The notes under the pieces were generated by a model. It ran no database searches, was not told the DNA's origin, and was given only the letters and a program-made list of their open reading frames with translations. From Amphibalanus amphitrite (Eukaryota; Arthropoda; Thecostraca; Balanomorpha; Balanidae), in the NCBI RefSeq assembly GCF_019059575.1, contig NW_024881987.1, forward strand, positions 372,001 to 436,000: a stretch of DNA of 64,000 nucleotides, written 5' to 3'. Both the position numbers and the translations under genes were made by a program. This document shows, one piece after another, positions 21,501-64,000 of the stretch (positions are counted from its first letter, which is position 1; each line of letters starts with the position of its first letter).

Positions 21501-24500
21501 AGCGGCGAGTTAAACGGAACCTCCGATGCTAAGGTAAGACGTCATCACTAAACGCCAGCACGCTGTATTATATTGCTTGCAGCAGGTATTGTTTCGCATT
21601 GAAATCAGAAATATGGCTGTTGCATTTCATGTTTGTATTCCGCGACATATATCAATGCGAAGCAATACTGCAAGCAATATAATACAACACGCTGTTGTTT
21701 TGTGATGAGGTCATACCTTAGCATCGGAGGTTCCGTTTACCTCACCGCTTCAGTGAAGCGCGCTGAAGCGAAGTGAAGGGGCGTGCCGTGAAACAGGGCC
21801 CAGAGAGCGCCGAGTAGCAAACCATAAAATGGCAGCTGGCCAGCAACCCAGCTCGTGTTTGCCTCCCCCCCCCCACAAACATACAAACTCAATGAAACGC
21901 CCAACACGGATAGTACCTATGTTTATCACTGTCTGGTGGGTCAATGTGAAGGGGTAGCACACTAATGTTAACCCTCGCCGGTATTGGCGTTTTTCCAGTC
22001 GCGAACGTATAAGGGGGGGGGGAGTCCGTTGGACCCCCTTGCCGTTTCGCCCCTGATCGAGCTAGAACTTCGCGGAACAAACGACCGTGTTGCCCGTGAC
22101 GAGAGGAAAACGATGATACCCAATTTCAAGATCCTTAGTCATCAGTTGACCTTCCAGGTCAGGTCAATGACCCAAAAGTCGGGGAAATCGGGACCTGTTA
22201 GAACGTCGTAAAGGGTGGCTGTTATGGTTTTTTTCGGGGTGCTGATCACGAATACCATGTTAGTTATGATAATAGATAATGTCTCCATGCATTAAGGCCA
22301 GGTCGGGTCAAATCAGGTCAGATCAACCAGTAGGGATTTTGCCGGGTATTCGTAGTAGGTGGCAAACACCTCTGACAGCTTCGTAACATGTTGCGAAGGC
22401 ACCAAAACTTCTTCGTAATTGTTCAAATGGCTGCTAAATTCAAAATCAGCTCCAAAAACTAGTCTAAAAGCGTGTTAAACTCGAAAAAGTGAACCGAGTT
22501 CATCAAAGGTCAATGAACTGACCTGACCTTTCGGAGACCTTGACACCCACCCTTGTGCATGGGAGCAACATCATATTCCATGTTTAAACGCTTGAAACCA
22601 CGAAAAGACTGCAAACGCTCGGCTAATGCGAGCCCACAGTGTATATAAATATTGCGAGCCGACGTAGGCCGAATTGCGATTCCGGATAAACCTGGTCTCG
22701 AAAAGTAACTCACAGGTCAAAGGTCATTTGGGGCAGGGTCATGAAAGTTTCAGAGTTGGTGTGAAATTGATAAACGCGAGGGTACTGAAAGTTGTGTCGC
22801 GATCGGTCGCTTTTTGCGCGACTTATTTGCGAAAAACCGAGAGGAGTCCGTTCGACCCTCCCCCCCCCCCCCGCACCCTTCTGCTATGCATACGGGCGAG
22901 GGTTACGGTATGGCGCAGATCGCCTATTTTGGTTTTTGTTTTGTTTTCTTTTGTTAAAAAAATCATGTTCTCAGGGCTGTGACGAAAAACAAGTGGCCTA
23001 AATCCGGTGAGAAAACAGGATTTGGGGGTACCCTAGGTTTGGCTCCTTCAGTCTCTGCCCCCCCCAGTGAAAATTCCTTAGACGATTCCCTGAAAGGAAC
23101 TGTTCCAGTCCTGAGTCAAGGTCCATTATTCTTTTCTCACTGTCGATATGTTTTTAATTCCTCTTGAGATAAGACGGATAATAATGATTCCGTGTGGATG
23201 CTAAAGGCTGAAGTGCAGAATCTGTACACACCGTTTTCCTATCTCCAGCAAAGCTTACCTATGTTTTTTTCGTCCATTCAGTTACGTTCACCGTTCTCTC
23301 TACCGACTGTCTTTTTAGCTCAGCCGGCATTCGGGACTATTGCATTCAATACGCGATCCACCACGGGTAGTGGAACGTCCTCGCCACCACGCTCAGTACC
23401 CGTGGGCTGTATCCCGCATAGTTGATGAATACAATGATCCAGTGTATCTGATTGATTGCCTACAATCTACATATTAATGAGTGAACCACAAAGAAGTCGC
23501 AATCGGTCTACCACTTACGAGTCTACCACCTACGACTTTGTACAATCAGTGAAGTCAGTGAACCATGGTGAATATTTATTTTTTAATTATGATCAACGAT
23601 ACAATTATGACACACGTGACGCAGCACGCCTTGTGGGGGCAGCGTTGACTGAAATTCAAGCGGGCGACGCTGCTGACTTATCTCTGACGGGCATACCAGA
23701 ATCTTGGGCGTCCTGTCATCCCTTTCATGCTTTCATCTGCGGCCGATATCTGAGAACCGCGAGAGGTAGCAATGCGGGGGACTGGCACGCAGGCAAACGC
23801 AAACACAAACAAGGCACTATCAACATACCAATTAGCGGCGACTGGCTCACGAGTTCCAAAGTTCATTAGGTGCATTCCAATATTCATCCAGCGTAAGCTG
23901 GTTACTGAGCACTAACGTTTTTTTCATTCATTCTCTTTCTGACAAAACGTATGACACATTTTTATTCAGAAAATCTGCATATTTTCCCCACTTCTAGAGA
24001 GCTAGAGCGGCATTGTCGAGGCCTGTGTGTCGGGGGCATTTGACTTTTCTCCGGTGTCACTCGCCGGCCCTCCCCTGCTCCACTGACCCCTCCCCTCTCC
24101 ATCTCTCTCCCCTCCCCCCACTAACCCCTCCCCCTCTGTTACAGCGCGGTACCGAATCGACTGCGAGCGGGAACATATGTACGCCATCGTGGACGTCACA
24201 CCGAGCATGAAACAGCTCTACCTTCACCGGCTCAAACATTTTCCAGGTATGTGCCAGCTGGGTGTCATAGTGGTGCATTAGAGCAGGCATTGTTTGCACC
24301 GACCGGATACATGTAAAAAGAGGAAAAGGTTACGACTGTAATCGTGCTCTGTTTCATTTTTCAGAACATTGTACTGTTTTGTTCCGCGCGAAGCACTAAC
24401 TCAACTCATGTCGCTCACAGGCTGTGAACCGGATATGAGAAACGAAAAGGCGATATTCCACATCAATTTGGCAAACACCAACGATTTCAGCGCCTGTGGA

Positions 24501-27500
24501 GTTACCAAGATCGTCAACACTAAGACGGTAAGTGGGTGCTGATAGTTCCCTATACATTGTTCTATGAGCATATTTACACAAGTACACACTCTGTGCTCAT
24601 TTTTCAGCTAACATATCTCATCTTTGGTAATCAGCTCACACGACCGCATTCGATTCTCAATACGCCAGTCTTTGATGCAATTGCGTTGGATAATTGCTTT
24701 AGTTTTCAAACTCATTTTACATACTTCAATACCTATGTCAATCTGTCGTATGTCGCGTCAGCAATCTTTTACAGTTGCTTTGAATCAAGCGTGCCTAAAT
24801 ATTACATAGACATATTGTGAAAGTGGCCTTTTTTAACTCTTCCTTTGTCCACAGTAGGCATTGTCTTGCTTTTGTGATTTCTATGAATGGAAACCTCCTC
24901 CTCATGTTCCATTTCTGACGCGGAAGGAGCAAAAAGCCCGTCATCATGGCCTGTTTCGGGCTGCCACCGGCGCGACTTTTTCCCAGCCCATTTCGCCGCC
25001 ACCCAACTCTCAGTTCACCCCGTGACACACGTTTCTCTGTCGGTTTACCCAGCGACACCCCCTCACTCCCTGTGACCCCACCCCTCGTCTTCGCAGGGCC
25101 AGAGGATGTACTCCCACCAGGTGGTGATTGAACACGAATCGGGAATGAAGGAGGCTCTGCGCCTGCACTGCGCGTACAACGGTAACGGCACCGTCCAGCA
25201 CGAGGCACACAACATCGTCCGGCGGTCCCCGCAGGGAGACGGCTGGCCCAGCGGCTTCCAAGAGCCCGAGTGAGTGTGAAATGGCATAAGCAGAACTATT
25301 TTATTATTATTTCACCTCACCCGGCACCACAAAGAAGAAGGCGGAAGAGTAGTGGTTAAACACATCGACAATCGGCACATAGAGCCCATAATTGACGCTT
25401 GAAATGCATACAGTGTAGTTCACAGTGAACCGCACAGTTGCGCTGTCTTTTGGAGCTCTATCTCATCGGCACACGTTTTATCCACCATATGGCAGTAGGT
25501 AATCGACATAATTGACATCAATGTGCATTATTGTCACTTGCACGGGCCGATCACTAGGCGATTACCGTCATTTAGGAGGGCGGCTAAAACTCTGTATTGC
25601 CCTCAAAATAAAAGCTGTCGGGCCAATAATGGTCATTATCCGCCCGACAGGTCATTAGCGCCCGACAGCTCAAATATGTTCAAATATATATTCTCATATG
25701 AATACCACAAATTATTTTAATGAAAATTGCGGTTATTGCAACTGAAAGAAGTAGGCGGTTCTGTACAAACAGTTTTTGATTTATATTTTATTTACAATAC
25801 TTGTCATAGACCGATGCACGACCGATTGCACATTTGATGCGTTTTCGCTATGTAATCGTACGGCGTACCTATCCTTACGCGTGAAAGTTCACATTGATAA
25901 CGCAAGACCCGTTGAACGTTGCATTCGGGAGCAGTGACGACAGAGCTGTTCTCGCCGTTACCAGTTGCTGGCTTTGACGGACTTCCGATGGGTCAGGCAC
26001 CCGATGTTCCTGTTCGTTCATGTTCAACCAGTCATCCACTTCCATCCCACCGATGGTCAGATTAAAGTTGGGCTTTTCTTCGCACAACCGTCGTGAGGTA
26101 GCAGGCCCTCCGTTCTGTATCACCGTGGCGCTGCACCCTGGGACTACACTTGCGGCTGTGTCGGACTGCCTGGTCATCGTTTGTGCCAATATCTCAGAGC
26201 AACGCCTTTTTTGAGGAACTGACATGTCGTCAATGTAATGTGAAAGGCTTGCGGTCCTTTTGTGTTTTGTTACTTTAACGATATCTTCAGCTGCCACTCC
26301 AGCTTGATGCAATGTCGTGACGGTGGTGGCACGAACGCTATGACATGTATAGCGTTGTGATAGCTTAGCGCTATCAGCTATCCTCTGCATGATTGTTGAC
26401 AGGCTGTTCTTCCCCATTGCTTCGTTTCTGAACCAACATTCATCTTGCGTCCATGCTCTCTTTGGTGTTTGGAACAGCCTATCACTATTATGATTGATCT
26501 TTTGCTGGTACATCTTGAAAACTTCTACACCAGGCCCGTACATCCTCTGATCAGAAAAGTCTACATCTCCCTGCTTGCTTCCACCCTGATGGTTTTTTGT
26601 TGCTTCAGTTTTCGAAATAGTGACATATTCCTTTCCGTCTGGGTCTTCTCTGATGACGAAATGATCTTTCCTCATCTGAGCCCAACCTTCTCGACCTCTT
26701 CTCCCGAAGAAAAAGCAGAGATAGAACCATGTAGCCTGCAGGAGGATGGTTGGATTTGACGCGAAATCCGAGAGGTAGTCACCCAAGCGCTTCATATCGT
26801 CCTCTGTGATAGCAGCCTTATGCTGAGGCTTGGGGTTGCCTGCCTTTACGTACAGTTTGCAGCGAGCGTCAAAAATGTTGTTTGCTGCAATAAACTCTCT
26901 ATCGGTTATGATGTTGATCGGTCTGCTATGTGGAGCGCTGGTCAGGCAGCGATGGATGGCCGCACGAATGCAGGTCAGTGTACTGGGCGTTAGAGTTTCC
27001 CCCGCTTTCTTCGCCTTCACTTCAGCGTAGAACCTTCTTAGTAAACTACACAGTTCTTCATGAGTAACTGTTCCAAAATCGCATGCATGGTCTCTCAATG
27101 CAAGCCATTCATTAAATTTCTTCATCCCATACTGAGTGGCCTTCGATGTGTTGTCAGGTACAACACTTCTTTCCAGCTCTAACGCTCCGTTATTTCGCTA
27201 TCCATCTGGCGTTTCCACGCGCAAAGGAGACAGAGCCAGGGCTGCGGAGTCGATGAATTTTCGGCGACTCCGACTCCGACTCCGACTCCGGCTTTCAAAA
27301 ACCAGCTCCGACTCCGACTCCGACTCCGGGCAGAATTGTCGACTCCGACCGACTCCAACTCCCGACTCCGACTCCGCAGGCCTAGCAGGGCTGCGGAGTC
27401 GACAGATTTTCGGTGACTCCGACTCCGACTCCGGCTCGGGTTTCTAAAATCGACTCCGACTCCGACTCCGACTCCGGTCACAACTGTCGACTCCGACCGA

Positions 27501-30500
27501 CTCCGACTCCGACTCCGACTCCGACTCCGCAGCCCTGGACAGAGCTATTATTACCTCAGAAGCTAAACCGAAAATGATGCACCGTTCGCTCTGACCTGCC
27601 TTATATACTCTAGTCGTGAGTGCTCGCCCTAAATTCCCGAAAAGTCACGTGCTTAACAATAACCAGTATTTTACATTCTCGCGCACTACGAACTTGCTGA
27701 CCGACCTCCAGAAGATTTGACTACAGCAAGCTATTGAGAAAAAGGTTAATTATGAACTAGATAAGTGACAATAATACAAATAACGTGACTTTTGTCGGGC
27801 GATATGAGTTTTGAACGGCCCTTCACCATTATCAGAAGCCCTTCATGATACTTAGCGTCCCTCGCTACGCTCGGGCCGCTCAGCATCATGTCGGGCTTCT
27901 GATAATGGTGTCGGGCCGTTCAAAACTCATATCGCCCTCCAAAGTCACGTTATTGTACTATTATTGCGGCCTACGGCGCCTAAATACCCGGAAAATGTGC
28001 AATTCCCTCAGTGAATTGTCTCAATGGCTGACAATTCGCGGCTTCCTAGTGCCATAAAGTACAGGAATGCCATTTTTCACAGCATGCACATTACACCAGC
28101 AAATCACATAAGGCAAAATCGGCAGCCTCATTTACCGCATCAACGCATGTGAAATCCGCGGTGACATGTTATCGCTGCCATTCTTTGTGACTTGCCACCG
28201 TGTCTATTCCCTGAGCCGTGTCAGCACTGCAGTTCCTTGTCGACTAAAACGTGAATGTGCGGCGCCCGCGGCTGTGTCTGAGAGTCACCGCAGCACCGCG
28301 ACCTCTTCACCCGTGGAGCCCCTCCCCACCGCAAACACCTCGTGTGGGCTGTATTGTGGGGAGGTCGGAAGGTCGCGGCCTCTGACCCCGGAAAGGTCAT
28401 CAACAGGAAGACCGCTATACGCTCCAACCACAGAGGAACGAGGTGGTGGCCCGCAGCACGCGCCCCGCCGCGACAACAGCCGAAAAACGGACCGCCACTT
28501 ACCCGATCGGCGCGGCAGATAGGAGGCCGTCTTCAATAGCGTCTCTGTCCCGCTGGTGGCCACGAACACTGGCGTTATCACCCGCTGACAGCACTATCAG
28601 CTGGTGGTCTGTATTCCCACAGCACCGGGGCGGGAGAAGACACGGCGGTGACACAACCCGGCGGACACAGTGTCGGGCCGGCGTGACATCTGTGTCACGC
28701 CGAGCCGTCACGCTGCTCTCACGGCTGGGAGCTGGCCGCGTGACGACCATTGTCGGGTGACGTGACGTCACCGCCGGCTGCAGCGTGGTCGGGTGTTACC
28801 GGCGGGACCGGCCGGTGCTGGCTGCTGTACGGTGGAAGGTTTCGGCACGGAACGAAGGATAAAGCCGAGTCTCTTTAGACGTTGACGCAATCCACTTTTG
28901 GTAGTTTCGGTGGGTTGCGCAACGCCTATGGAGGACTACAGGTGACTAGGAGACCGGAGCCACTATCGGTGGACAACTACACTAGCGCACCATAAACAAA
29001 TGAGAGACCGATGAATATTGAGTCATCGCTCCTTAGAGGTTGTCCCTAGTAGAGTCTCTAGCATGACCGCGCACTATCTAGAGGACTAGCTAGTGCATTG
29101 ACAGCTAGTGTAGTATCGACACATCAAGCCTTAGTTGTGAGCAAACGTGACACAGTCACCGCTGTCGCCACCTCCCTCCGCTTACACTGCCGTCCCCTCC
29201 CACAAGGTAAACACTAAACACAGACGTCCGCTGCGAGTCCTACGGTACTTGCTCGGTCGGCGGCGCTCGCTGCTGCTCCGGGACCGCTGTGTCAATCCAG
29301 TGGGTCAGCGGGACGGCGTGTATGTTCCATACTGGCCCAAGCTTCTTCACCTGGCTTCAGAAGCAGAGCACTGGCGCCTGGCTGTGTTGGGTCTGTTAGA
29401 TATTATTGCCAGAGGCTATTGATTTGCTATGGTATCGCTACTGTCTTCTGGCTGTAGTGGTATGTGTTTCCAGTTTCCACCGGCGGACCATAGGAATGAC
29501 TTAACCCTCGCATGTGTAGGGGGGGGGGGGGGTCGGATGGACCCCCCCATGGTTTTTCGCGAATAACTCGCGTAAAAAGCGGCCGATTGCAACGAAACTT
29601 TCAGTACCCTCGCATTGATCAATTTTACACCTACCCTGAAAATTTCATGACCCTGACCCAAATGACCTTTGACCTGTGACCTCTTTTCCGAGACCATGTT
29701 TGGCCGGAATCGCGATTTCGCGTATGTCGGCTCGCACTAGCCGCGTGTTTGCAAGCTTTTCGTGGTTTCAAACGTTCAAACATGTGATTTGATGTTACTC
29801 CCGTGTGTGTCAAGGTCAGGTCAGGTCATTGACCTTTGGTGACCTCGGGTGACCTCGGGTCACTTTTTCGAGTTTTACATGTTTCTAGGCTAGTTTTTGG
29901 AGCTGAATTCGAATTTAGCAACCATTTGAACATTTACGAAGTAGTTTTGGTGACTTCGTAACATGTTACGAAGCTGTCAGAGGCCGTTGACACGTACTAC
30001 GAATACCCGTCACGACGCCTACTGGTTGACCTGACCTGACCTGACCCGACCTGGTCTAAATGCTTCAAGACATCATCTGTGATCAAAACTAACACGATAT
30101 TCGTGATCAGCACCCCGAAAAACCCCTTAGCAGCCACACTTTACGACTTTCTAACAGGTCCCGATTTTCCCGACTTTGGGTCATTGACCTGACCTGGAAG
30201 GTCAACCAATGACCTAGGACCTTAAAATTGGGTATCATCGGCTTCCTCTCGTCACGGGCAACACGCTCGTTTTTTCCGCGAAGCTCTAGCTCGATCAGGG
30301 GCCAAACGGCAAGGGGGGGGGGTCCAACCGACCCCCCCCCCCCCCCTACACATTAGAAGCTGGCAAACGCCGCACACATGCGAGGGTTAAAACTGTGTCA
30401 CAGTTGTCTGCACTACCCACAGCCATGTCTATTGTATAGGTCACCTGACCTGTCTTACACCAGTCTGTCTTCACAATAATCCAACTGTCTGCTCTGTCCT

Positions 30501-33500
30501 CTGAATGCAGTGCTCCCATCAGTCATGTCATATACCGCTAACCGAACTGTCTGTCCTGCCCTTCAATTGCGACGCTCCCCGCAGGATCCTGGAGATCACT
30601 TAAGAGATACTTTACTGTCCTGTCTGTCCCCTGACTGTAGTGTCATCCCCCACAGGATCCTGGAGATCACGGATGACACTCTACCGTCTCTCCTGCCCCC
30701 TGACTGTAGTATCCATTCACAGGATCCTGGAGATCACGGAGGAGATCACGGCCACGGCGCCGGAGCCGGTACTGGGAGTGGTGGTCCGCCAGGACGGTCA
30801 GGAGATCGATACTTCACTGAACGTGCGGCCCGGCGCGCCGCTCGACATGGAGATCTCGCTGGACAACAAATCCTCCAGCACGTACGGCATCATCGTCAGT
30901 GACATGATCGTCAGCGATACCAGGAAGCAGGAGGAGCTGCTGCTCACCAACGGGTGGGTGTGCGGGAGGGAGAGAGAGATAGAGAGCGAGAGAGAGAGAG
31001 AGAGAGGGGGGGAGATGGAGAGGAGGAGCTCCTGCTCACCAACGGGTGGGTGTGGAGAGGGGAGGGGAGGGGAGGAGCTGCTGCTCACCAACGGGTGGGT
31101 GTGTGGTAGCGATAAGGGAGATGAGAGGAAGGGGAAGGAGAGAGGACGAGAGGAATTGGCCTAAGAAGGGTGTGGGTCGATGGGGTGGAAAATGACGGAG
31201 GGAGAGATAGATGACGGAGGGCAGAAGCTGAGGAGCTGCCGCTCACCAACGGGTGGGTGTTGGGAATAGAGGAGGGAGATGAGAGGAAGGGGAAGGAGAG
31301 AGGACGAGAGGAATTGGCCTAAGAAGGGTGTGGGTCGATGGGGTGGAAAATGACGGAGGGAGAGAATCATAGAAGAGACGGAGGAGGGACGTGAGGTGAG
31401 GGCTGAACTGGAATGCCTAGGGTAAGATGACTTGCTGTTACGTGTTTCGTTTTCAAAGTTCACCATTAATCTCCATCCATTTCTCATGATCATTATTTGT
31501 CGCCATTGTCGACCCTAATAACCATATTATTGTACTCCCTTCAATTGAAGTTCTGAGCTATATTTGGTTGTCCGTCGAAGGCTCATCATGACTCAGTTAA
31601 TGATCTTACTATTGTACGGGAGTCTTAATTAATTCCTGAGACAACAGGACAGGAGTGTAAATCATACCGATAGACAACTTTATTGCTGGGTGCTCATATT
31701 CTTTTGTGTGAAACCACATTGTGAAACGCATAATAGTTCGGTTGTAGTTGACTTTTAAATCTCATTTCAGATGTTCCGTGGATCCGTACCTGTTTGGGAA
31801 CTTTGCCACCGAGACTGGCGACAAGCTCAAGGCCAACTTCCGGGCGTTCAAGTTCCCTGAGACCAACTACGTGCTCTTCAAGGGCATCCTGAATGTGTGC
31901 ATCGACGTCTGTGAAGGGGTGAGTTCCGGCTGCTGTCGGCGGGCCTGACGGGTCACGGCGACTCTCACGCAGACTCACAGACATCCGTGCACAGTGCACT
32001 TACAGTGGGCAGGGAGCGGTGGCCTGGTAACTTTCAACAGTTCCATCACCGAAAAGCACAGTCATTTAATATGGAAACATAGTGGGAACTGGGAGCATCT
32101 ATTTGTTGATAGCGAAATAGCCGTGAACCGCCAATCTCAGCTATTTTTATATTTGCAGGTCTTAATCACGTTATCAACTAAAGCACTTCATCGTCACTCA
32201 ATTTCCAACTCAGGTTTGGAATTTTTGGCAGTCATAGCGGATTTTTTCTTTTCATTTATTCTTACCTCGACGCCCTTAATCGAAGTACCGCTCAAAAGAA
32301 ATGCCAGTTATTCATCAGAAGTCCCGTAAATCGTACGCTGGTGGTTGACCCTACTTACCGGTTTTATTCTGTTTTGTTTATGCATTTCATTGCAGTTTTT
32401 TTTTTGCCCTTCCCCTAGATCGTGCCCTGTTATCGCCGGGACATGGAGAAATGAATTGTACCGCACGGTAGATTTTGGTGCAGAGCAGTGCAGCCACTAT
32501 GGGTGCGCTGATTTACAGCCGGAAGAAGCAAAAAAGCAAGGCAGTATGGAGACTGCAACAGGACACAAACAGCTAACACCAGATGGGCGCGAAGCAGACA
32601 TCGAACAGGATTAGGGTAAATGTCATATTAGGCTATCCAGACTACTCGCTCATTGTCACCATAGTTTACGGTCATCATTTATGCTATTTTCCGCGCTCTG
32701 CACAGCCGTGACCGGTCAGCACGGCTGTTCCCGAGCTCCTCACCAGGTGGTATTCAGGTCATTTGTGAGCCCTCTGCCTGCTTCCCTCCCCCTCCCCCAG
32801 CACCGTCATTGGCCGGTGCCAATCTCAGTCACTCTCTGGGAATGCTGATTGCTGGGCCAAACCACCTGTCTAGCGGCTCTCCCTCGCTCTGTCCCGGCGC
32901 GGCGGGGCGGTCACGACTGCCCACGATCCACCTATCCGACCTTGGCAGACCAGACCGAGCCGATATACTAGGGCGGGGGCGGCGGCGGGGGCGGCGCCCT
33001 CCGTCAGCGCCGCCCGGGCGGCTGGCGTGCCGCTGGTGGGCGGCCGTGGGCGGCGCAGCCCTTATGGAGCGGCCCCGGCGGCCCACGAACGACCCACGGC
33101 GGCACGGCACCGCCAGCCCCGCTCACAGGGAGCGGCACGGGTTCCTGGAGTAGCACAATCACGGGCTGGGGAAGGATACAGGGATGCAATTGCAAACTAT
33201 AGGGAAATCCAAGCAGCCACACTCACGGACCAAATGCAACTTCTTCTGGGTAATGGGTTCCTTAGTGAGGATGAGTTTATGCTGTAGGATGGCCCTCGGG
33301 AATAAATTATGAGCTAGACTGATCTTAATTAAACGATTTCTTACGATTCAAATTGGACTGGAGTAGTGGCTTTGAGCTAGAGTTTTGCGTTACGATTGTC
33401 TGCATTTTTAACCCTCGCCCTGGCAGGGGGGTCGATGCGACCCCCCTAAGGTTTTTCGAAGATAGCGTAAAAACGGCGGCGCGCAGCGCCGCCAAATTTG

Positions 33501-36500
33501 GCACAGCCTATGGAGCAACCTTTTTACATATGACCTGAAAATTTCAGGTCCGGGTGACCTTGGGTCAGGTCACCAGGTCAGAAAAACCGGTACAAGGTCA
33601 TGGTCAAATTTCAATTTTCTTTTTGCACCTGTCCAACTCACAGTTTTGGACTGATTTCCTTCAAACTTGCAGGATGTGCTAAGCTCACCGAGTTGTATAA
33701 CATATAGTTCGGGTTTTTTGAGGTCACTGACCTGAGGTCAGTTAGAGGTCATTACGTCGTAATGTTAAGCCTATGGGAAAATACTAAATTCGGAAAATAC
33801 TGGAGATATCCGCTTTGTTCTATCACTTTTGTGCTTTGAAACCACAGTAATTAACAGCAGGTCACTTGGTGCTGCTTTGTTTGGTGTACTTATCCATGGG
33901 TCAGGTCAAATGAGGTCAACTGAGGTCAAATGACGTTTTTGCCAATAACTTGGCACATAATGACGCTAGAGCTTAAAAAATGGTATCATTGTGTTCCTGG
34001 TGATCAGCCAAATCGAATGATATGCGATATGATGCAATTTGGTAAACTTGAACTTAATTTGTTAATTTAAGTTTACTTAAAATTTAAGAAAAACTTTAAG
34101 TACACTTAATCAAGCTAAAAAGTATATCATTCGACGCGCCTTGACGAGCTGAGTTCACTGGTGCTTTTCTTTTTGCTCTATCTTAATTAGATCAAAAGTT
34201 ATAAGCGAAAAACTTTTGACCTGTTTTTAGCGAAATTTTTACATTTATACCCCCCAAAACCCCCCTAAATATTGACCTAGAGCAACCAAATTTGCACAGG
34301 GGCGAGAACTCCAAGGGGCCCACCTACCTACCGAATTTGGTGTTTCTAGGTGCCATAGGAGCCAATCGCGAGGGGGGGGTCGCATCGACCCCCCCCCCCT
34401 GCCAGGCCGTGTTATGAAAAATGCCCTGCCAGGGCGAGGGTTAAACGGAGTGTGGCACATTCTCCAGTGTGGCCTTGGCCAGCTTTGGCCCGATGAACCA
34501 GAGCAGAGACCTTCCTGTTCCAGTGAACTAAGGTGAACCGCAGACCTGTTTCGTCCAGTAACTTCAGGCATTGTCCTTGTGTAATAAATCGGAGACCTGG
34601 CTGGTCTAGTCAGCTGGTGTATTTATTGTCCAATGAACCGCAGACTGGTATTGCGGGACAAGAATGTGTCTGTCGAAAAGGAGCCGGTCCTGTAGACTGT
34701 AGTCAGACCTGTGAGCCAATCGCGGAACTACGTGTGCTGCTTCGCGATTATGAAACGGTACATAGTTGACTGATCGCATCATCAAGCGACTATGTGAGCC
34801 TACAGGTCAACCCACAGATTGACAGGTCAGAAGACTGCTGTTTGTTTCTAACAGACAAAACAACAATAGCGGGACCTATGGACCTGCGACTCAATTTAAC
34901 CAGTCGTCGTCAAACAAGTAGCTCTGGAAAGAAGGCTATTACTGCCATACTCGTTAGGAAACAGCACAATAAAACAACCCTAGATCATAATTGTCCCTGT
35001 CACATTGAGAGCTTAGACAATGCAATTCATTACGCAACCGACATAGGAAAATCTGGCCTGTTCTGTAACATCTTTGAGCGATTGCTGGCAGCGCCTCCAT
35101 TGTAAGTACATAATTAAACCGAATGCTAGCATTTTTGCACACAAATGTCGTTGGAGCTGAAATGTTAACTACCTTTCTGTCAATTATGTAATGGCTCATG
35201 TCATGACATTAGCTTGGTGTGATCGGGTTCTCGGCTTAACCGCCTCTACAAATAACGCTGTTATCCATGGGGTGCGCATAACTAACCTGTTGAGAGAATC
35301 ACGGTCTGCAAACTACGTATACTGGCACTTGACGGAGCAAAAGCCCGGCTGACGTCAGCTGGTCAGTGACGACACATTAGCGGTAGGTCAGAGGTCGTTG
35401 GTCAGGTAACTAGAAACCGCTACTCTGCTGCCTTAATCAATAAATCTTAATTAAAGATCAGACATCAGCGCTTGTTGGGAATATCGGTTTCCTATAGATC
35501 GGCGGGCAGTTATCTGTATTTCGCTCCTCACGATTGCGGAATCTCTGCCCCCAATGTGCATAGGTCCGTGGGCGGCGGTCGCTCCCAGTTTGGTGAGCTC
35601 GCGTTGGGCGGACAGGCTCTGGCACCGATCGGGGTTCGTCCGTGCTGGGGCGGCACAGTAAAAATGGCCCCGATAGACCGGATTCGTAAGGAGTGGAGGA
35701 ACACCGGAGTGTGGCCAACGGGGAACGCTGCACGATGCGCAGTTCACAGTCTCACAGTCAATGCACAGTCACAATTGTTACCCATTCCCCAAAAAGTGAG
35801 TGACAATTACCGACTCCCCAAAGGCTGCGTTTATTATCCAGCGCAGAAGGCGATTACGTTCAGATGTGTCGCAGCCGAAGTAAATTCAGCGTGCAACGGA
35901 TATTTGAGTTACGGAAGGCGTTGGTGGGATGTGCCTCCTGTAAATAATGATCTTACCCGACCCGTCCTTCGTTCTCGGCTGCAGTGCAGTAACTTTGAGG
36001 TAGGTTGCTGGGTGTAACACCAACAGTGACCTTACCTGACCCGTTCGTCCACAAATGCAGTGCAGTAAGGTAGAATATTGGTACGGTCGAAGTTGGCAAC
36101 CTGACCTGACCTTTCCCCTCCCCACAGGTCCAGTGCAGTAACGGAGAGCTGGGGTACGGCCGGTGGCAGTGACCTGACCTGACCTGGCCTGACCTGTCCA
36201 GTGACCTAACCTGCCCCTTCCCTCGCCCCCAGGTTCAGTGCAGTAACGGAGAGCTGGGTTACGGCCGGCGACGGCGTCGCGCCGTCACTCCTAGCAGCGA
36301 CCCGAACCAGGTGTTCCAGGTGGAGATGAGTACCATCCTCAACGTGCAGTTCGAGGACGCCGAGACCAACGTCAAGGCCGGTAAGACGCCGCCACCGGGC
36401 GGGGTCAGCTTTCACGGAACTTTATTTTTACTCTTGCACAAGGACTCTTGTGCTTTCTCTTGTGCTTACTCTTGTGCTTATGACGTCTCAGCACCGGCTG

Positions 36501-45471: not shown

Positions 45472-45706
45472 TTAACCATTTATGCTGTGAAGGCTAAGGT
45501 AAAGTTAAGGTGAGCGCTCTAATAATCAAAGTGTTCAATGAAATGTGTCCCAACCACCAGATGCTGTTTCTCTGGGTTGAAGAATAGGGCGCAAATAGGG
45601 TTTGCGCAATTACGAATGGAACACATTTTTCATGAGCTTCAAATATGGCGAGGACAGCGAAGCCACGGTGGTAATAAACTTTCAAAACTACCATTAAACG
45701 AGCAAT

Positions 45707-46144: not shown

Positions 46145-47574
46145 TTCACATATATAAAAATCAAAATGTCCGTATGTATGTATGTAACGCGTCAGTCACG
46201 CTTTAACCCTATTCCTGGCGGGGGGGGGCCTCAGGAGCCCCCCCCCCTGAGGTTTTTTGGTTATTTCTCCCAAACGCGTTGAGCTAGGAAGCTCAAATTT
46301 TCTGACTTTTCCTATAAGGCTTCTACGCAACATGTCTGAAAATTTTGAGTTGATCTGACCTCAGGTCAGGTCACCAGAGGCGGTTTGGTGACCCTACCTC
46401 AGAAAAGTTTGCAATCACGCCAGAGCTAGAGTTTTTGACCGATCAATTTCTTCTCTTCAGGCTTTAGTTAGGGTACCAGTATGTGCAATTTGTATATCTC
46501 GGAATTTTGATATCGGTGACCTAAGGTCAGGTCAGTTTCGCGACCTCCCCATTATAAGTCAATGGGGGAAAAATCAACTCCCTGTTTTTACCACTAAAAC
46601 GGGTCGGAATGGCCCAATATACCATACATGACTTCATATACGACCAACCTTCACTACCTTGAGGTCTGTTTTGCTGTTGGGCAGCTGTGAGGTCATGTGA
46701 CGTCATCAAAGGTCACCAAAGGTTTTTGGCCAATAACTCCGTACAGGAACAAGATACAGACGCGTGGATGGTCTCATTGTGTTCAGCTCGTCAAGACGCA
46801 TCGAATGATATACATGATGACCTCGAGGTCACGTGACCTGAGGTCAACCTTTGACCTTGACCTTTCGAGGTCAACATATATATCATTCGATGCGGATTGA
46901 CGAGAGGATCACGATGATGCCCTTAGTTTGTTCCTATCTTGACTAATTCGAAAGTTATTTGAGAAAAACTCTCTCCGTATCTAGCGCCGCCATTTTGACT
47001 TTTTCGACCCCTGTGACGTCATCTTTGACCTGACCTGAAAATGACCTTAGTAAAAATTGTAGACCTTGTCCATGCGTATCCGATGCCGTTTACCGCTTGT
47101 CGCTATCTTGCTTCGTTCTCGAGATCTCAGGGGGGGCCGAATCGGCCCCCCCCCCGCCAGTTTCTTGTCCCGGCGGAGCCCGCCAGGAATAGGGTTAAGG
47201 GCTATTGCTCCGGAACGGTGCGGGCTACGGGGGTGAAATTTTGGACTTAAGTCAGACGCGTGCATCTGTTTGTTGTATTAAATTTTGGAAGAGGTGCGCT
47301 CGGCGGTTTGCACGTGGCGGGCGCATCTTTGCGGGATTTTGGCCGCGGCCGGCTTCGAGCAGACGGCACGTGCCGTAGGCTCAGATTGTTCGCTGCGAGA
47401 ATGAGGGAAATCAGAGCCGGAAGGTCACTGACCTTTGCCAATGAATACCGGAACAGAGCACCGCCGGCCAGGAGGAGACGCCAAATTTATTCTGGCCATA
47501 ACTCGGCCGCTACTGGGCCGATTTTAAAGAAAATTAATTTATTACGCTGCGCGTAATGCTGGACACCTAGTCAC
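46145..47574 (+). repeat. GTATGTATG-headed repeat, copy 2, split by element I
   Basis: The head (46145-46206) and body (47195-47574) are separated by element I at a TTAA. The perfect inverted AGGTCA site lies at 47422-47434. Confidence 0.85.
46207..47194. mobile_element. TTAA-flanked element I (988 bp), inserted in repeat copy 2
   Basis: An inverted twin of E. TTAA is at 46203-46206 and 47195-47198. The neighbouring repeat copy 3 keeps the unoccupied site CACGCTTTAAGGGCTATT at 47635-47651. This shows directly that the element entered a single TTAA and left it on both sides. Confidence 0.95.
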
Positions 47575-48049: not shown

Positions 48050-48080
<31 letters not shown>

Positions 48081-48955: not shown

Positions 48956-49201
48956 AATTATTTTTAGTTGAATCACTTCACATCTCTAAGATAAACCATG
49001 ACACTAGCAAAGGTCGAAATAGACTGTTTCGCGTAAGAAAATAGAGGAAATCACAAAAAAATGGTCTGCGAGAAAGCTGAGACACCTCACCTGCCCCCGT
49101 GGACCGGAATAAGAGCGAGTTATTGGTGGTGAAGTAAATGCATACATTTGAGTATTCATTCGAATCGAATTTTGGACAGGAGGAAGGTGTGGCGCATTTA
49201 A

Positions 49202-50365
49202 CCCGCGCCCCGTAGGGGGGGGGGCCGAAACGGCCCCCCCTGTCCTTTTCGGTCGATATCTCCTAAACGGCTGGAGATATCGCCACCAAACTTTCAGGAC
49301 CCCTCCGGGCATCAATTTTACACATTGTGACTAAAAATTTTCCAGAGGCTATGATAGGTTGGCCACAAATGACGTCAGAGTGACGTCATGTTCTGTCATT
49401 TTCGACCGAAAAAAGACCTTCGCGAGAAGACCTGTCAGGACTACAGCTTTGAAGATACAGAAAAATGATCAAGACATAAAAGGTGTAGAACTGACAAGGC
49501 TACAAAACTGCTATCTCGAATTTTTGAAATTTTTGAGTTTTGACCCCCAAAAATCAAAAAAGCATTTTTTGGATATATTCGCCAAAAAATCCAAAAAGTT
49601 TTTTGAGTTTCGAAAAAAACGGAATATATGTGATAGTGCCTACCGTCTTCTATCTACATACCAAACTTCAGATCGATACCTCGTTTTTTGGCCAAGTTAT
49701 AGCGAAAAAACTTCAAAAATGATGACGTCAAATTTTCAAACTCAATTTTTGGCAATTCTAGAACTCGTAGAGCAAAACAAAGACCACCATTAGACTCCCC
49801 GTGACGAGCTGCATCGAATCGATACCCATTTTATGCAAAAATATCAACTTTAAAATTTGACCTAATTTGACCTGACCTTGACCTGACCTTCACCAAAACG
49901 TGACCTAGGCTGGCCCCAAAGGCTGCCTAATCCACATAATCGCATTTGTCATGTAAAATGGACCATAAAACATGTATCACACGACACATTCATATTGTGA
50001 CCCCCGGTGACCTGACCTCGCTGTGACCTGACCTGGTATCAGTGACCTCAGATAGCAAAGTATGTGTTTGACGAACAATGCACCATCGATGGTTTTCAAT
50101 AAATTACCAATTTATTCGCTTTCACAGCACATTTCTTGAATTGCCTGTGAACGGTGAAATTCTGACCTTTGACCTGACCTGTGACGTCATCGGTTTGACC
50201 TAGGTCAATGAAATTTGGTCACAAGGTAGTTCCCGGGTGGGGCTATCGAACGCCGTTTGAATTTTGAAAATCGGCCGGTAACTTTCCGAGATCTTAGGGG
50301 GGGGGCCGAAACGGCCCCCCCCCCTACGGGTGGTAGGGTCCGCCGGTAGCCCTACGGGGCGCGGG
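49202..50365. mobile_element. TTAA-flanked element J (1,164 bp)
   Basis: The ends are CCCGCGCCCCGTAGGG and CCCTACGGGGCGCGGG, flanked by TTAA at 49198-49201 and 50366-50369. Hairpins at 49215-49240 and 50297-50324 both carry CCGAAACGG. It is related to H. It lies just inside the right end of Q. Confidence 0.9.
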
Positions 50366-50400
50366 TTAAGAACATGGCGCAATATGACCTCTCTCCCCTA

Positions 50401-51540: not shown

Positions 51541-51577
51541 GATGGGTATAGGTTCGTCCCCAATGACTCCTCCTTAC

Positions 51578-51990: not shown

Positions 51991-52242
51991 CACGGGCTTC
52001 ATTCAGGTAATTGGACTTTGGATAAAGAGCAGATCGATGAGCATGAGGTGGTGACTTACACAAAATGATAATGAAGCATTGCCGTTAAGTGGTATTGCTC
52101 TCTAAATCCACTTAATTTACTCATGTTAACGAGAGCGAATTCATGTTTGTCGCTGGTAGGCGTGACAATGCTAGATATAAATAATCCTCTCAATCAATCG
52201 CCCTAAGCGGATTAGTCAACAAAGCACATTTACCGATATTTA

Positions 52243-53357
52243 ACCCGCGCCCCACGGGAGAGGGCTATTCATAGCCCCCCTCCCGTTTTTCTGCAATAAC
52301 CTTTAAACCGCTTGACATATTGCCGCCAAACTTTCAGTACCTTCGGCTGCATCAATTTGACACCTTGTGTCAAAATTTGAACTTCGTATCTATCATAGGT
52401 CATCCGGAAATGACGTCAGAGTGACGTCATGTTCGGCCGATTTCGACGCAAAACATTGAACCACGGGAATCACTCCCAAGAGCTCAGTTTTTTAGCTAGA
52501 TCCGATTTATTTGCATAAGAGGACTCAAAATAGACTGCGCTATCAAACTGCTATCTCAAATTTTCAAAATTTTTCAACATTTTGAAAATTATATATATAT
52601 TAAAATTCAAAAATTGTAGTTTTATTTTTTTCAAAAAAAAATTTACATAAAAAAACGGAATAAATATGATAGAAAACATGTTTATAACTTACTCTAGCAA
52701 GTTTTAGCTAGGTATCCTCAAAAATGGCCAAGCTATACGCATCATAGCAAAAATTTCACAGTTTCAAATTTTCAAATCAATCTTTATATACGAATTTGAT
52801 GTCGTACACCAGTATAAATAGCACCATCGTGTTCCTGAGCTCAAACTGCATCCGTGATCCGATAGACATGTTTTTTGTTGAAAAAATTCAACTTCAAAAT
52901 TTGACCTTTTTTTACCTGAAATTGGGACCTGACCTGAACTATATTCAGATGAAAATGGCCTCAAAAGACACAGGCGACACCGAATTCGAAATCTATGGCC
53001 CAAATGGAACATAAAACATGTGTCACGTGACCGACTTATGACATAAGATTTCCGTGAACTATGATGACCTGACCCTGACCTGAAAATCAAAGTACAGGTT
53101 TGGTACCCTCAGGGTATCTAAAGCATCTGTTCACGAGTGTGTAAACCAAAAATCAGCCTGATCTGACTTATAAGACGGCAGCCAGAGCCCAAAATATGAA
53201 CAAGCCAAACATCGATAATTTTTACTTTGACCTGACCTGTGACGTCATCGGTGACCTCGAGGTCCATAGAATTAGGTTTCGCTCGACAGTTTTTCCGGGG
53301 CTATCAGACGCCGTTTGAATTTTGACAACCAGCCCAGTAGTTTCGGAGTCAGCTATA
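52243..53357. mobile_element. TTAA-flanked element K, right end lost
   Basis: It starts CCCGCGCCCCACGGG after TTAA (52239-52242) with a hairpin whose core is CTATTCATAG (52257-52284). The body is related to H and J. Near 53357 it is interrupted by element L. The expected GGGCGCGGG-TTAA terminus is not found after L, so the right end was deleted or replaced by the following hAT-like and array sequence. Confidence 0.8.
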
Positions 53358-54335: not shown

Positions 54336-54349
54336 TACTATAGCTCAGC

Positions 54350-54422: not shown

Positions 54423-57400
54423 ACAAGATATCTTGGCTCGCTCCGCGTCGCTTTGGCCATAAAAAGATTCGGGAGAAAATTTGGGATCGAATGGTGTTTT
54501 TCCGGTGACGATCGGACGTCTAGAAGCTTCGATATTGGCGAAAAACTTGCTGAACTTGCAAAAGTACTTGGTACTTGCTTGGTACTTGCCAAAGTACTCG
54601 GTACTTGCTAAAGTACTTGGTACTTGCTTGGTATTTGCATAAGTACTCGGTATTTGCCAAAGTACTTGGTACTTGCTTGGTATTTCCATAAGTACTTGGT
54701 ACTTGCTTGGTACTTGTAAAAGTACTTGGTACTTGCTTGGTACTTGCGAAAGTACTTGGTACTTGCACTCGCCCCCCCCCGTTCCCCCGACTCTACTCCC
54801 ACACCTACCCCCTCGGGATAATTCCGGGTTCGTCGGGTAGGAAAACTTGCCACTCTACTCCCCCCCCCCACAGAGCCATTTGGTATCGATCGGTGTTGAT
54901 CCCGTGTCAATCGGTCGTCAATAAGCCGAGATATGCACGGCGAATTATTTCAATCGGCGTCGATCAGAATCTTCAGAACGGAGGGACCCACACTCATTTC
55001 TGGCCGTATCTCACTTTTCCGAGATGTACGTCAAACTACCTATTTGAAACTACATATTCTACAGCCGAATCTTCAAACTGGGGGTACCTCAGACCGTGGG
55101 AACGACTCGGCTCAGCACTGCCGCACGCGCATTCAGCGGCGGCTTGTCGATTTTTCGAGTGTCGGCTGCCGATCTCCCGAGAGCCGGCCACCTGTCAGCC
55201 GCCGCTCGGCTCTGTGTTAAGCATATGGGGACGGCGAATTTCTCCCGGAGGGAAGCACCTCGCTCACAAAAGCACGTGAATCAGCCGCATTCCTGGTCAT
55301 CGTCTAATGCTGAAGAGATATGTGTGCACGCAGATATCTCGCAAGCCCTAACAGGAAAAGCTCGCTGCGAAAACTGAGCGTTTCAAAAAACCCGCAATCC
55401 TACTCAAATGGTATATTATACAAGATATCTTGGCTCGCTCCGCGTCGCGTTGGCCATAAAATGATTAAGGAGAAAATTTGGGATCGAATGGTGTTTTTTC
55501 CGGTGACAATCGGACGTCTAGAAGCTTCGATATCGGCGAAAAACTTGCTGAACTTTCAAAAGTACTTGGTACTTGCTTGGTACTTGCCAAAGTACTCGGT
55601 ACTTGCCAAAGTACTTGGTACTTGCTTGGTATTTGCATAAGTACTCGGTATTTGCTAAAGTACTTGGTACTTGCTTGGTACTTGTAAAAGTACTTGGTAC
55701 TTGCTTGGTACTTGCGAAAGTACTTGGTACTTGCACTCGCCCCCCCCCCGTTCCCCCGACTCTACTCGCACCCCTACCCCCTCGGGATAATTCCGGGTTC
55801 GTCGGGTAGGAAAACTTGCCACTCTATCCCCCCCCCCCCCAGAGCCATTTGGTATCGATCGGTGTTTGTCCCGTGTCAATCGGTCGTCAATAAGCCGAGA
55901 TATGCATGCACGGCGAATTATTTCAATCGGCGCCGATCAGAATCTTCAGGACGGAGGAACCCACACTCATTCCTGGCCGTATCTCACTTTTCCGAGATCT
56001 ACGTCAAACTACGTATTTAAAACTACATATTCTACAGCCGAATCTTCCAACTGGGGGTACCTCACTCACAATCGCACGTGAATTCAGCCGCATTCCATGT
56101 CACGCGCAATGCTGAAGAGATATGTGTGCACGCAGATATCTCGCAAGCCCTAAGAGAAAAAGCTCGCTGCAAAAACTGAGCAATTCAAAAAACCCGAAAT
56201 CCTAGTCAAATAGATAATTAAACAAGATATCTTGGCTCGCTCCGCGTCGCGTTGGCCATAAAAAGATGTAGGAGAAAATTTGGGATCGAATGGTGTTTTT
56301 CCGGTGACGATCGGACGTCTAGAAGCTTCGATATTGGGGAAAAACTTGGTGAACTTGCAAAAGTACTTGGTACTTGCTTGGTACTTGCCAAAGTACTCGG
56401 TACTTGCCAAAGTACTTGGTACTTGCTTGGTATTTGCATAAGTACTCGGTATTTGCCAAAGTACTTGGTACTTGCTTGGTATTTGCAAAAGTACTTGGTA
56501 CTTGCTTGGTACTTGTAAAAGTACTTGGTACTTGCGAAAGTACTTGGTACTTGCTTGGTACTTGTACTCGCCCCCCCCCCTTGTTCCCCCGACTCTACTC
56601 CCACCCCTACCTCCTCGGGATAATTCCGGGTTCGTCGGGTAGGAAAACTTGCCACTCTATCCCCCCCCCCCCCAGAGCCATTTGGTATCGATCGGTGTTT
56701 GTCCCGTGTCAATCGGTCGTCAATAAGCCGAGATACGCACCGCGAATTATTTCAATCGGCGCCGATCAGAATCTTCAGGACGGAGGTACCCACACTCATT
56801 CCTGGCCGTATCTCACTTTTCCGAGATTTACGTCAAACTACGTATTTAAAACTACATATTCTACAGCCGAATCTTCCAACTGGGGGTACCTCACTCACAA
56901 TCGCACGTGAATTCAGCCGCATTCCATGTCACGCGCAATGCTGAAGAGATATGTGTGCACGCAGATATCTCGCAAGCCCTAAGAGAAAAAGCTCGCTGCA
57001 AAAACTCAGCGCTTCAAAAAACCCGAAATCCTAGTCAAATAGTATACTATACAAGATATCTTGGCTCGCTCCGCGTCGCTTTGGCCATAAAAAGATTCGG
57101 GAGAAAATTTGGGATCGAATGGTGTTTTTCCGGTGACGACCGGACGTCTAGAAGCTTCGATATTGGCGAAAAACTTGCTGAACTTGCAAAAGTACTTGGT
57201 ACTTGCTTGGTACTTGCCAAAGTACTCGGTACTTGCCAAAGTACTTGGTACTTGCTTGGTATTTGCATAAGTACTCGGTATTTGCCAAAGTACTTGGTAC
57301 TTGCTTGGTATTTCCATAAGTACTTGGTACTTGCTTGGTACTTGTAAAAGTACTTGGTACTTGCTTGGTACTTGCGAAAGTACTTGGTACTTGCACTCGC

Positions 57401-60400
57401 CCCCCCCGTTCCCCCGACTCTACTCCCACACCTACCCCCTCGGGATAATTCCGGGTTCGTCGGGTAGGAAAACTTGCCACTCTACTCCCCCCCCCCCCCA
57501 CAGAGCCATTTGGTATCGATCGGTGTTGATCCCGTGTCAATCGGTCGTCAATAAGCCGAGATATGCACGGCGAATTATTTCAATCGGCGTCGATCAGAAT
57601 CTTCAGAACGGAGGGACCCACACTCATTTCTGGCCGTATCTCACTTTTCCGAGATGTACGTCAAACTACGTATTTAAAACTACATATTCTACAGCCGAAT
57701 CTTCAAACTGGGGGTACCTCAGACCGTGGGAACGACTCGGCTCAGCACTGCCGCACGCGCATTCAGCGGCGGCTTGTCGATTTTTCGAGTGTCGGCTGCC
57801 GATCTCCCGAGAGCCGGCCACCTGTCAGCCGCCGCTCGGCTCTATGTTAAGCATATGGGGACGGCGAATTTCTCCCGGAGGGAAGCACCTCGCTCACAAA
57901 AGCACGTGAATTCAGCCGCATTCCATGTCTGTTGCAATGCTGAAGAGATATGTGTTTCCGCGGGTATCTCGCAAGCCCTAAGAGAAAAAGCTCGCTGCAA
58001 AAACTGAGCGTTTCAAATAACGCCAAATCCTAGTCAAATAGTATACTATACAAGATATCTTGGCTCGCTCCGCGTCGCTTTGGCCATAAAAAGATTCGGG
58101 AGAAAAATTGGGATCGAATGGTGTTTTCCCGGTGACGATCGGACGTCTAGAAGCTTCGATATTGGCGAAAAACTTGCTGAACTTGCAAAAGTACTTGGTA
58201 CATGCTTGGTACTTGCCAAAGTACTCGGTACTTGCCAAAGTACTTGGTACTTGCTTGGTATTTGCATAAGTACTCGGTATTTGCCAAAGTACTTGGTACT
58301 TGCTTGGTATTTCCATAAGTACTTGGTACTTGCTTGGTACTTGTAAAAGTACTTGGTACTTGCTTGGTACTTGCGAAAGTACTTGGTACTTGCACTCGCC
58401 CCCCTCCCCCGTTCCCCCGACTCTACTCCCACACCTACCCCGTCGGGATAATTCCGGGTTCGTCGGGTAGGAAAACTTGCCACTCTACTCCCCCCCTCCC
58501 CACAGAGCCATTTGGTATCGATCGGTGTTTATCCCGTGTCAATCGGTCGTCAATAAGCCGAGATATGCACGGCGAATTATTTCAATCGGCGTCGATCAGA
58601 ATCTTCAGAACGAAGGGACCCACACTCATTTCTGGCCGTATCTCACTTTTCCGAGATGTACGTCAAACTACGTATTTAAAACTACATATTCTACAGCCGA
58701 ATCTTCAAACTGGGGGTACCTCAGACCGTGGGAACGACTCGGCTCAGCACTGCCGCACGCGCATTCAGCGGCGGCTTGTCGATTTTTCGAGTGTCGGCTG
58801 CCGATCTCCCGAGAGCCGGCCACCTGTCAGCCGCCGCTCGGCTCTGTGTTAAGCATATGGGGACGGCGAATTTCTCCCGGAGGGAAGCACCTCGCTCACA
58901 AAAGCACGTGAATTCAGCCGCATTCCATGTCACGCGCAATGCTGAAGAGATATGTGTGCACGCAGCTATCTCGCAGGCCCTAAGAGAAAAAGCTCGCTGC
59001 AAAAACTGAGCGTTTCAAAAAACCCGAAATCCTAGTCAAATAGTATACTATACAAGATATCTTGGCTCGCTCCGCGTCGCTTTGGCAATCAAAGTATGAG
59101 GGAGAAAATTTGGGATCGATGGGTGTTTTTCCGGTGACGATCGGACGTCTAGAAGCTTCGATATTGGCGAAAAACTTGCTGAACTTGCAAAAGTACTTGG
59201 TACTTGCTTGGTACTTGCCAAAGTACTCGGTACTTGCCAAAGTACTTGGTACTTGCTTGGTATTTGCATAAGTACTCGGTATTTGCCAAAGTACTTGGTA
59301 CTTGCTTGGTATTTCCATAAGTACTTGGTACTTGCTTGGTACTTGTAAAAGTACTTGGTACTTGCTTGGTACTTGCGAAAGTACTTGGTACTTGCACTCG
59401 CCCCCCCCGTTCCCCCGACTCTACTCCCACACCTACCCCCTCGGGATAATTCCGGGTTCGTCGGGTAGGAAAACTTGCCACTCTACTCCCCCCCCCCCCC
59501 CCACAGAGCCATTTGGTATCGATCGGTGTTTATCCCGTGTCAATCGGTCGTCAATAAGCCGAGATATGCACGACGAATTATTTCAATCGGCGTCGATCAG
59601 AATCTTCAGAACGGAGGGACCCACACTCATTTCTGGCCGTATCTCACTTTTCCGAGATGTACGTCAAACTACGTATTTAAAACTACATATTCTACAGCCG
59701 AATCTTCAAACTGGGGGTACCTCAGACCGTGGGAACGACTCGGCTCAGCACTGCCGCACGCGCATTCAGCGGCGGGTTGTCGATTTTTCGAGTGTCGGCT
59801 GCCGATCTCCCGAGAGCCGGCCACCTGTCAGCCGCCGCTCGGCTCTGTGTTAAGCATATGGTGACGGCGAATTTCTCCGGAATGGAGGGACCGCCATCGA
59901 GTTTGTCACGTGAATTCAGCCGCATTCCATGTCACGCGCAATGCTGAAGAGATATGTGTGCACGCAGCTATCTCGCAAGCCCTAAGAGAAAAAGCTCGCT
60001 GCAAAAACTGAGCATTTCAAAAAACCCGAAATCCTACTCAAATAGTATACTATACAAGATATCTTGGCTCGCTCCGCGTCGCTTTGGCCATAAAAAGATT
60101 CGGGAGAAAATTTGGGATCGAATGGTGTTTTTCCGGTGACGATCGGACGTCTAGAAGCTTCGATATTGGCGAAAAACTTGCTGAACTTGCAAAAGTACTT
60201 AGTACTTGCCAAAGTACTCGGTACTTGCCAAAGTACTTGGTACTTGCATAAGTACTCGGTATCTGCCAAAGTACTTGGTACTTGCTTGGTATTTGCATAA
60301 GTACTTGGTACTTGCTTGGTACTTGTAAAAGTACTTGGTACTTGCTTGGTACTTGCGAAAGTACTTGGTACTTGCACTCACCCCCCCCGTTCCCCCGACT

Positions 60401-60857: not shown

Positions 60858-60949
60858 TAGCGCCGACTAGGCTGATGCCGTTTTACAGAGAGAACATGAA
60901 TTAAAAAGTGATGTGCAGGCAGGGATCGAACTCAATATCTCTTTGGGGG

Positions 60950-61990: not shown

Positions 61991-61992
61991 CC

Positions 61993-63082: not shown

Positions 63083-63086
63083 TTAA

Positions 63087-64000
63087 TCCGCGCCGTGCTG
63101 GAGGGGGGGGGCGGGGTTACGCCCCCTTAGGTTTTTTTCTTGCGAACATCTAAAAAACGGCGTCGCGCAGCGCCTGTGCTGTCTTTGGTACACCTGTTCA
63201 TACATCTTTTCTACACAGCTTGTTAAATTTCAGATGAGGGTCGTTCAAGGTCAGGTCACTAGGGCACGTCAAGTGACCTTACCTCAAAAAAGTTAAAAGA
63301 CCCGCTATAGCTACACCGACTGAACGATCACTTTTGAAACTTTTAGAGATTGATAAGACTAACAATATGCATAAAATGTTCATCTCGGACTTTTTATTTC
63401 TGTGACCAAAGGTCAGGTCAATTTTGGGACCTCAAGTCAGTGGGAGAAAAATGAAATGCGCCTCTTTTTGGACGAATGTCGTTTAAAACCCCCTTAAACA
63501 TCGGTTCATAGGTAAACATAGCACACTGAATCGTAAAAATGCACATGTGTCCTTTTATTCGCCCTTGAGGTCATCTCAGGTCATAAACGGTCACCTATTT
63601 TATCACCATAAACGTTTTTTTTTTGGCTTCAACTTTTGATAGAGACGTGCTAGAGCGGTGAAAACACGTCAGATGTGGTCAGCTCGACGATACGGATCGA
63701 CTGATCTGCAGAATGACCCTTTCTGGTCAGGTCATGACCTTGACCTGCGGTCAAATTTTTTAAAATAACCTTTCAAGGTCAACGTATAGTTCATTCGACG
63801 CGTCTCGACGAGAGGAACAAGAGGCAGGCCAAATAAATATCGTCACTGTCTTGAACCAAATGTTATTGCAGACAAACGCTTTTCATAAAAACTGTTATTT
63901 TTGGAATTTTTGCCCTCTGGAGGCTAAACCATTGACCTGAGATCAAATCCGAGAGCAATATTCAGAAAAGCCTGTAAAAGGGCTATCGAATGCGCTTTTC
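63087..64000. mobile_element. Element N of the TTAA family, runs off the right edge
   Basis: It starts TCCGCGCCGTGCTGG after TTAA (63083-63086), with a G-run/C-run hairpin near 63102-63127. From about 63600 it matches G in the opposite direction. It entered M at a TTAA. The right end is outside the window. Confidence 0.8.

Follow-up and report, generated by a model that had tools for sequence, protein, structure and literature searches.

The closest described systems are piggyBac and piggyBat. piggyBac of Trichoplusia ni lies in TTAA, has CCC tips and carries one short and one long end. The palindrome of its LE35 sequence (bp 17-33) is described as the binding site of a dimer of C-terminal cysteine-rich domains, with the minor groove centred near bp 25, and the two C-terminal domains hold this palindrome as duplex DNA (PMC7351741). 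Our script placed the axis of LE35 at base 25, with 7/9 pairs complementary and hence an imperfect palindrome, and that of RE63 at base 53, with copies of a box at 7 and 34, 27 bp apart. Both sequences were confirmed in print.

For piggyBat of Myotis lucifugus, the published account places a box at bp 11-16, followed after a 3 bp gap by an imperfect palindrome that is bound by two C-terminal domains and whose sequence is unrelated to that of piggyBac (PMC11707139), and a bend is described near bp 25 (PMC13405395). One piggyBat end has three box-palindrome units, whereas such a palindrome is described as missing from the other (PMC11707139). The terminal motif of the piggyBac superfamily is given as CC[C/T]T, and the same source describes CMITE of Acropora corals, TTAA MITE families linked to piggyBac in which interiors are more conserved between families than terminal repeats (PMC2872659). 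CMITE is the nearest precedent for shared interiors combined with differing ends among the systems compared here, although its elements are only about 100 bp long and the consulted sections of that report mention no variable palindrome (PMC2872659).

Eleven related TTAA elements in Amphibalanus amphitrite

We analysed a 64 kb stretch of DNA from Amphibalanus amphitrite (the window; G+C 50.1%), which contains 11 related TTAA elements between positions 21968 and 64000. Both ends are present in nine of them (A, B, C, E, F, G, H, I and J), K has one end, and N has one end and is cut by the window edge. Without nested inserts, the elements measure about 0.9-1.2 kb. Their positions, together with the two ends of C as worked examples, are as follows.

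Element A, 21968-22906, minus strand: long end at 21968 (+), aberrant second end at 22906 (-).
Element B, 29501-30390, plus strand: short end at 29501 and long end at 30390, cores TCGGATGGA and TCGGTTGGA.
Element C, 33408-34444, plus strand: short end at 33408 with its axis at base 25, long end at 34444 with its axis at base 57.
Short end of C, 33412-33446, plus strand: 8-nt tip, 6-nt box and G6-TCGATGCGA-C6 palindrome centred on base 25.
Long end of C, 34372-34440, minus strand: tip and box, spacer, second box and G11-TCGATGCGA-C8 palindrome centred on base 57.
Element G, 39700-44017, minus strand: long end at 39700, short end at 44017, core TGTTTGAACA at both ends.
TA-flanked insert in G, about 40591-43725: hosts E and F, ends AGGGGAAGCCGGGGGAAGCCCGG.
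Element E, 40903-41898, minus strand: long-end core CCGATTCGG, short-end core CCTCAGGAG.
Element F, 42268-43305, plus strand: short-end core CGGGTGCCG, long-end core CGGGTACGA, the latter poorly paired.
Element H, 44292-45475, plus strand: core CCATTTTGG at both ends, box CCCGTT, inner long-end copy CCGGTT.
Element I, 46203-47198, plus strand: 97-98% copy of E in the opposite orientation, with a separate TTAA.
Element J, 49198-50369, plus strand: cores read inward CCGAAACGG (short end) and CCGTTTCGG (long end), flipped relative to each other.
Element K, 52240-53348, plus strand: short end only, core CTATTCATAG between GGGAGAGGG and CCCCCCTCCC.
Element N, 63083-64000, plus strand: short end with a weak palindrome, CGGGGTTACG, continuing past the window edge.

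The label "short" for the second end of A follows from its homology with the short side of B. These two elements are alignable except at the aberrant A end, with 80% identity over 916 columns once the first 37 nt of that end are left aside. H and J can be aligned end to end with 78% identity (911/1167), and N is 73-78% identical to parts of G, the TA-flanked insert of G being absent from N. No long end of K was recognisable where its homology to J ends.

Every TTAACCC string in the window (17/17) is the end of a TTAA element and carries a G-run, a core and a C-run; adding the short end of A, the short end of H and N gave a total of 20 ends from the 11 elements. The flank is TTAA at 19/20 ends, the exception being the short end of A (GTAA), and the tip is CCC at 18/20, the others being CAC (short end of H) and TCC (N). 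Tips start with CCCT in 12/20 cases, CCCG in 6/20, CACT in 1/20 and TCCG in 1/20, and 12/20 strictly match the superfamily motif CC[C/T]T.

Kolobok resembles these elements in its TTAA target site duplications, and Sola3 likewise makes TTAA duplications. Kolobok was set aside, as its termini are given as 5'-RR and YY-3' (PMC9587614) and the tips here start with CC (18/20), CA (1) or TC (1), not RR.

A DDE transposase of the piggyBac type, which in piggyBac and piggyBat has a C-terminal zinc domain, was not found in the ORFs scanned (18 of the 93 listed). Stop-free pieces from eight elements (8 of 86 listed were scanned) likewise gave none, with one weak, unrelated Pfam match; the elements look non-autonomous. 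One pattern scan each of viral and genome contigs (viral, bacterial and archaeal collections) returned no match to further copies. In the window, no tRNA was found and there was no Rfam match at gathering scores. The scanned ORFs include a 416-aa Crypton-like tyrosine recombinase (25875-27125, minus strand; DUF3504 and Phage_integrase), as well as a protein with leucine-rich repeats and part of a reverse transcriptase, a content that by itself would make a eukaryotic origin very probable. Seven arrays of ACTTGCAAAAGTACTTGGT-like repeats, roughly 0.8-1 kb apart, lie at 54554-60375. The commonest 6-mer in the TTAA elements is AGGTCA/TGACCT, a nuclear-receptor half-site motif, with 172 occurrences in 12,615 bp versus 53 in the 51,385 bp elsewhere. 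Its density is 6.9-18.1 per kb in each of nine stretches, and it often occurs as the overlapping tandem AGGTCAGGTCA and as TGACCTNAGGTCA.

A short end, a long end and a repeated box

A G-run, a core of 9-11 nt and a C-run are found in this order at 19/20 ends, the misfit being the short end of A, where the G-run is displaced. The earlier note had described about 11 elements with TTAA flanks and ends of this kind, and our count agrees with it. Read inward from TTAA, a short end consists of an 8-nt tip (e.g. CCCTCGCC, CCCGCGCC or CCCTATTC), a box of about 6 nt, the G-run, the core and the C-run. A long end begins with tip and box, followed by a spacer and then by a second copy of the box with the palindrome. 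In 8/9 complete elements a short end and a long end can be clearly told apart, A being aberrant. This asymmetry had been missed in the earlier note.

Ten short ends (excluding that of A, which has no clear axis) have the palindrome axis at bases 25-33, and 9 long ends have it at bases 53-60, the best axis of F reaching 62 by another measurement. Because the G-run ranges in length from 6 to 15 across ends, the distance from tip to axis is variable, and much of the spread in axis has this source. Measured instead at the start of the palindromic G-run, the difference between long and short ends is 26, 27, 26, 30, 27, 27, 28 and 26 bp in B, C, E, F, G, H, J and I, respectively, so that the offset is 26-30 bp in 8/8 elements measured; the box next to the palindrome on the long end is a second copy lying 26-30 bp deeper. 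The three copies of the box within an element agree with one another: in seven elements (B, C, E, F, G, H and J), no other of the 5,040 pairings was as good as the true one in any of the three comparisons. The box is CTGGCA in 3/3 copies of C and CCCGTA in 3/3 copies of J, while B has TGTGTA, with TGTGTG at the long tip, and F has GGCCGA, with GGACCA at the long tip. By eye, the long-end spacer seemed to hold a further palindrome, but the test gave no more than chance (30 vs 30.1). Just inside the short end of C, at 33475-33493, there is a second palindrome, rich in G+C (GGCGGCGCGCAGCGCCGCC); with counterparts in G and H and an imperfect one in N, it is common to several elements.

This plan fits that of piggyBac in target site, asymmetry, axis (25 and 53 in piggyBac), box offset (27-28 bp there, 26-30 bp here) and, less strictly, most tips. 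The palindrome and box sequences are different from those of piggyBac, and the elements are further unlike it in that their G-run/C-run arms vary in length, their cores differ among sister elements and a partial scan revealed no transposase. With piggyBat they share a box followed by an imperfect palindrome near bp 25, and they differ from it in the distribution of palindromes over the two ends. The earlier note knew of no named family with such a barcode-like hairpin; in the titles and abstract openings searched, no variable palindromes changing in step are described for TTAA elements, which leaves that statement uncontradicted, although the anatomy of the ends is that of piggyBac.

Covarying cores and their agreement between ends

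Palindromy was assessed on 11 cores, one per family end, F being represented by its better end and B, C, G, H and J by a single end each; both ends of I (a copy of E) and the short end of A were omitted, and the 11-nt core of the long end of A was hand-trimmed to 9. Complementary bases occupied 33/44 nested pairs, compared with a mean of 16.0 when 3' halves were swapped, and 0/200,000 swaps reached 33; this and the following palindromy and pairing counts overstate independence because the copies are related and all come from one 42 kb stretch. Results were similar for all 17 usable ends (49/68 pairs vs 26.3 expected; 0/200,000 shuffles) and for the 14 distinct cores (39/56 vs 21.6 expected; 0/200,000 shuffles). 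From the outside in, 11, 10, 8 and 4 of 11 pairs were complementary, the innermost being near chance. The outermost pair is biased because the G and C runs were trimmed; without it, 22/33 pairs remained complementary in the 11 cores (vs 10.1, p about 1e-5) and 26/42 in the 14 distinct cores (vs 14.4, p about 5e-5). The covariation reported earlier, in which both arms of the stem have changed together, is real. The accompanying description of differing cores as nearly all palindromic applies to most of them, but B, N and the long end of F are poor palindromes and the innermost pair contributes little beyond chance.

Left and right cores were compared in eight elements (A, B, C, E, F, G, H and J; the core of the short end of A was picked by eye). 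Their summed distance was 17, against a mean of 43.0, and 4/40,320 pairings were as good; with flips allowed, the distance fell to 10 against a mean of 39.0 and the true pairing was the best (1/40,320). The two cores of one element thus match more often than those of different elements, a check that the earlier note had proposed. The same core had been reported at both ends of C, G, H and J, and this is correct for C, G and H. The cores of J are the same word on the plus strand and hence, read inward, opposite-strand versions of each other (CCGAAACGG and CCGTTTCGG) with AAA versus TTT at the centre. A is likewise flipped: apart from a single difference, the core of its short end is the reverse complement of that at the long end. 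In E and its copy I the two cores are unrelated, which is the clearest case against a strict matching of ends; such agreement need not be compulsory, since one end of piggyBat is without the palindrome.

Outside box and palindrome, the ends of one element do not resemble each other. The 60 nt inside the palindromes show no match between left and right in seven elements (0.30-0.55; shuffled mean 0.33, 95% at 0.58). Between elements, the same 60 nt match on the short side (mean 0.68), and on the long side have a mean of 0.53, with values of 0.83-0.93 among A, B and F, 0.83 for E and H, and background for the others. The sister elements H and J have changed in step: an identical change in the final base of the box separates them in 3/3 copies, with one more difference in the inner copy of H, and at core pair 3 both ends read A-T in H but G-C in J.

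Candidate dimer sites and competing accounts

We consider it likely that the elements belong to the piggyBac superfamily as non-autonomous members, with the palindrome serving as a duplex site for a dimer of the transposase C-terminal domain and the cores marking lineages with different specificity. Since the axis and the box offset follow piggyBac, whose palindrome binds a C-terminal dimer, a dimer site specific to each family is the best reading of the "hairpin". The palindrome would be contacted as duplex DNA by a two-fold dimer of the C-terminal domain, and the box beside it would be read by the transposase core domain, so that box and palindrome together would form the address that the transposase reads. 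A short end would then comprise tip, box and palindrome, and a long end tip and box with a further box and palindrome about 27 bp deeper. Because a symmetric dimer needs a symmetric site, both arms would have to change together as the recognised sequence drifts, and because one transposase must hold both ends, box and palindrome would tend to change together at both of them. Different cores would correspond to lineages served by transposases of different specificity. Position, symmetry, the duplicated box, left/right agreement and the in-step change of H and J are observations; we infer that the sites are bound by a transposase of the piggyBac type and that its specificity is set by the cores. 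Weighing against this reading are the tips that depart from CC[C/T]T, the variable distance between tip and axis, the unrelated cores of E and I, the poor palindromes of B, N and the long end of F, the aberrant second end of A, and the negative outcome for a transposase in the ORFs and pieces scanned.

The earlier note had proposed selection for a hairpin; the fold would be a DNA cruciform or an RNA stem. Single-strand DNA folding was performed for 6/20 ends, all short and hand-chosen, and 6/6 folded better than nearly all shuffles (z -2.3 to -5.8; 0 to 4 of 200 folded equally well); a tight loop would, in addition, leave open the innermost pair, which is near chance (4/11). The open centre cannot, however, separate a hairpin from a duplex site, because the piggyBac palindrome is itself imperfect (7/9 pairs). 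Position and box duplication match the piggyBac plan, in which the palindrome is described as bound in duplex form (PMC7351741), and selection for a fold is unnecessary because the palindromes of both piggyBac and piggyBat at that place are described as binding as duplex (PMC7351741, PMC11707139). The covariation and the left/right agreement behind this proposal are real, but they do not require the fold, and we regard selection for it as very unlikely. Conversion between the inverted ends, with one end copied onto the other as in the second idea of the earlier note, would make their agreement a product of copying rather than of shared recognition. In its favour, only box and palindrome agree, and in C, G and H this agreement includes the centre, which is not palindromic. 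Converted tracts might nevertheless extend into neighbouring DNA, yet the inner flanks do not match left to right, and copying alone does not make cores palindromic; this account appears unlikely.

The covariation might also arise by template switching during replication, in which one arm is copied onto the other and the loop inverted, so that pairing is kept by mutation and not by selection. Template switching has been described to homogenise arms and invert spacers (PMC8604942) and to be capable of making compensatory changes in one event (PMC8794818). The G-run/C-run arms look apt for it, and the core flips between the ends of A and J are its expected trace. It acts at one end at a time, however, and therefore leaves unexplained the cores shared by both ends in C, G and H and, up to a flip, in J; nor does it predict that ends separated by about 1 kb should agree, and neither the in-step box and core differences between H and J nor the set distances from palindrome to tip are accounted for. 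We think it unlikely that mutation of this kind replaces selection here. Combined with recognition of a dimer site, template switching probably contributes part of the covariation: at G/C-armed hairpins it would supply some of the arm changes and core flips, and recognition would keep them.

If the dimer-site reading is right, the elements would constitute a natural covariation experiment on a transposase dimer site that changes in sequence yet stays usable, and they could help to read the specificity of piggyBac C-terminal domains from sequence. The MITE families of this locus have a common interior and differ in the part that a transposase would read. A further possibility, which we hold to be less likely than not, is that a piggyBac-type lineage within one genome has split into at least nine end addresses, each a box with a palindromic core. 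As in H versus J, up to five sites of an element, namely three boxes and two palindromes, would then change in step while the interiors stay recognisably shared; in this way, MITE families may gain separate, perhaps non-cross-reacting, transposase partners.
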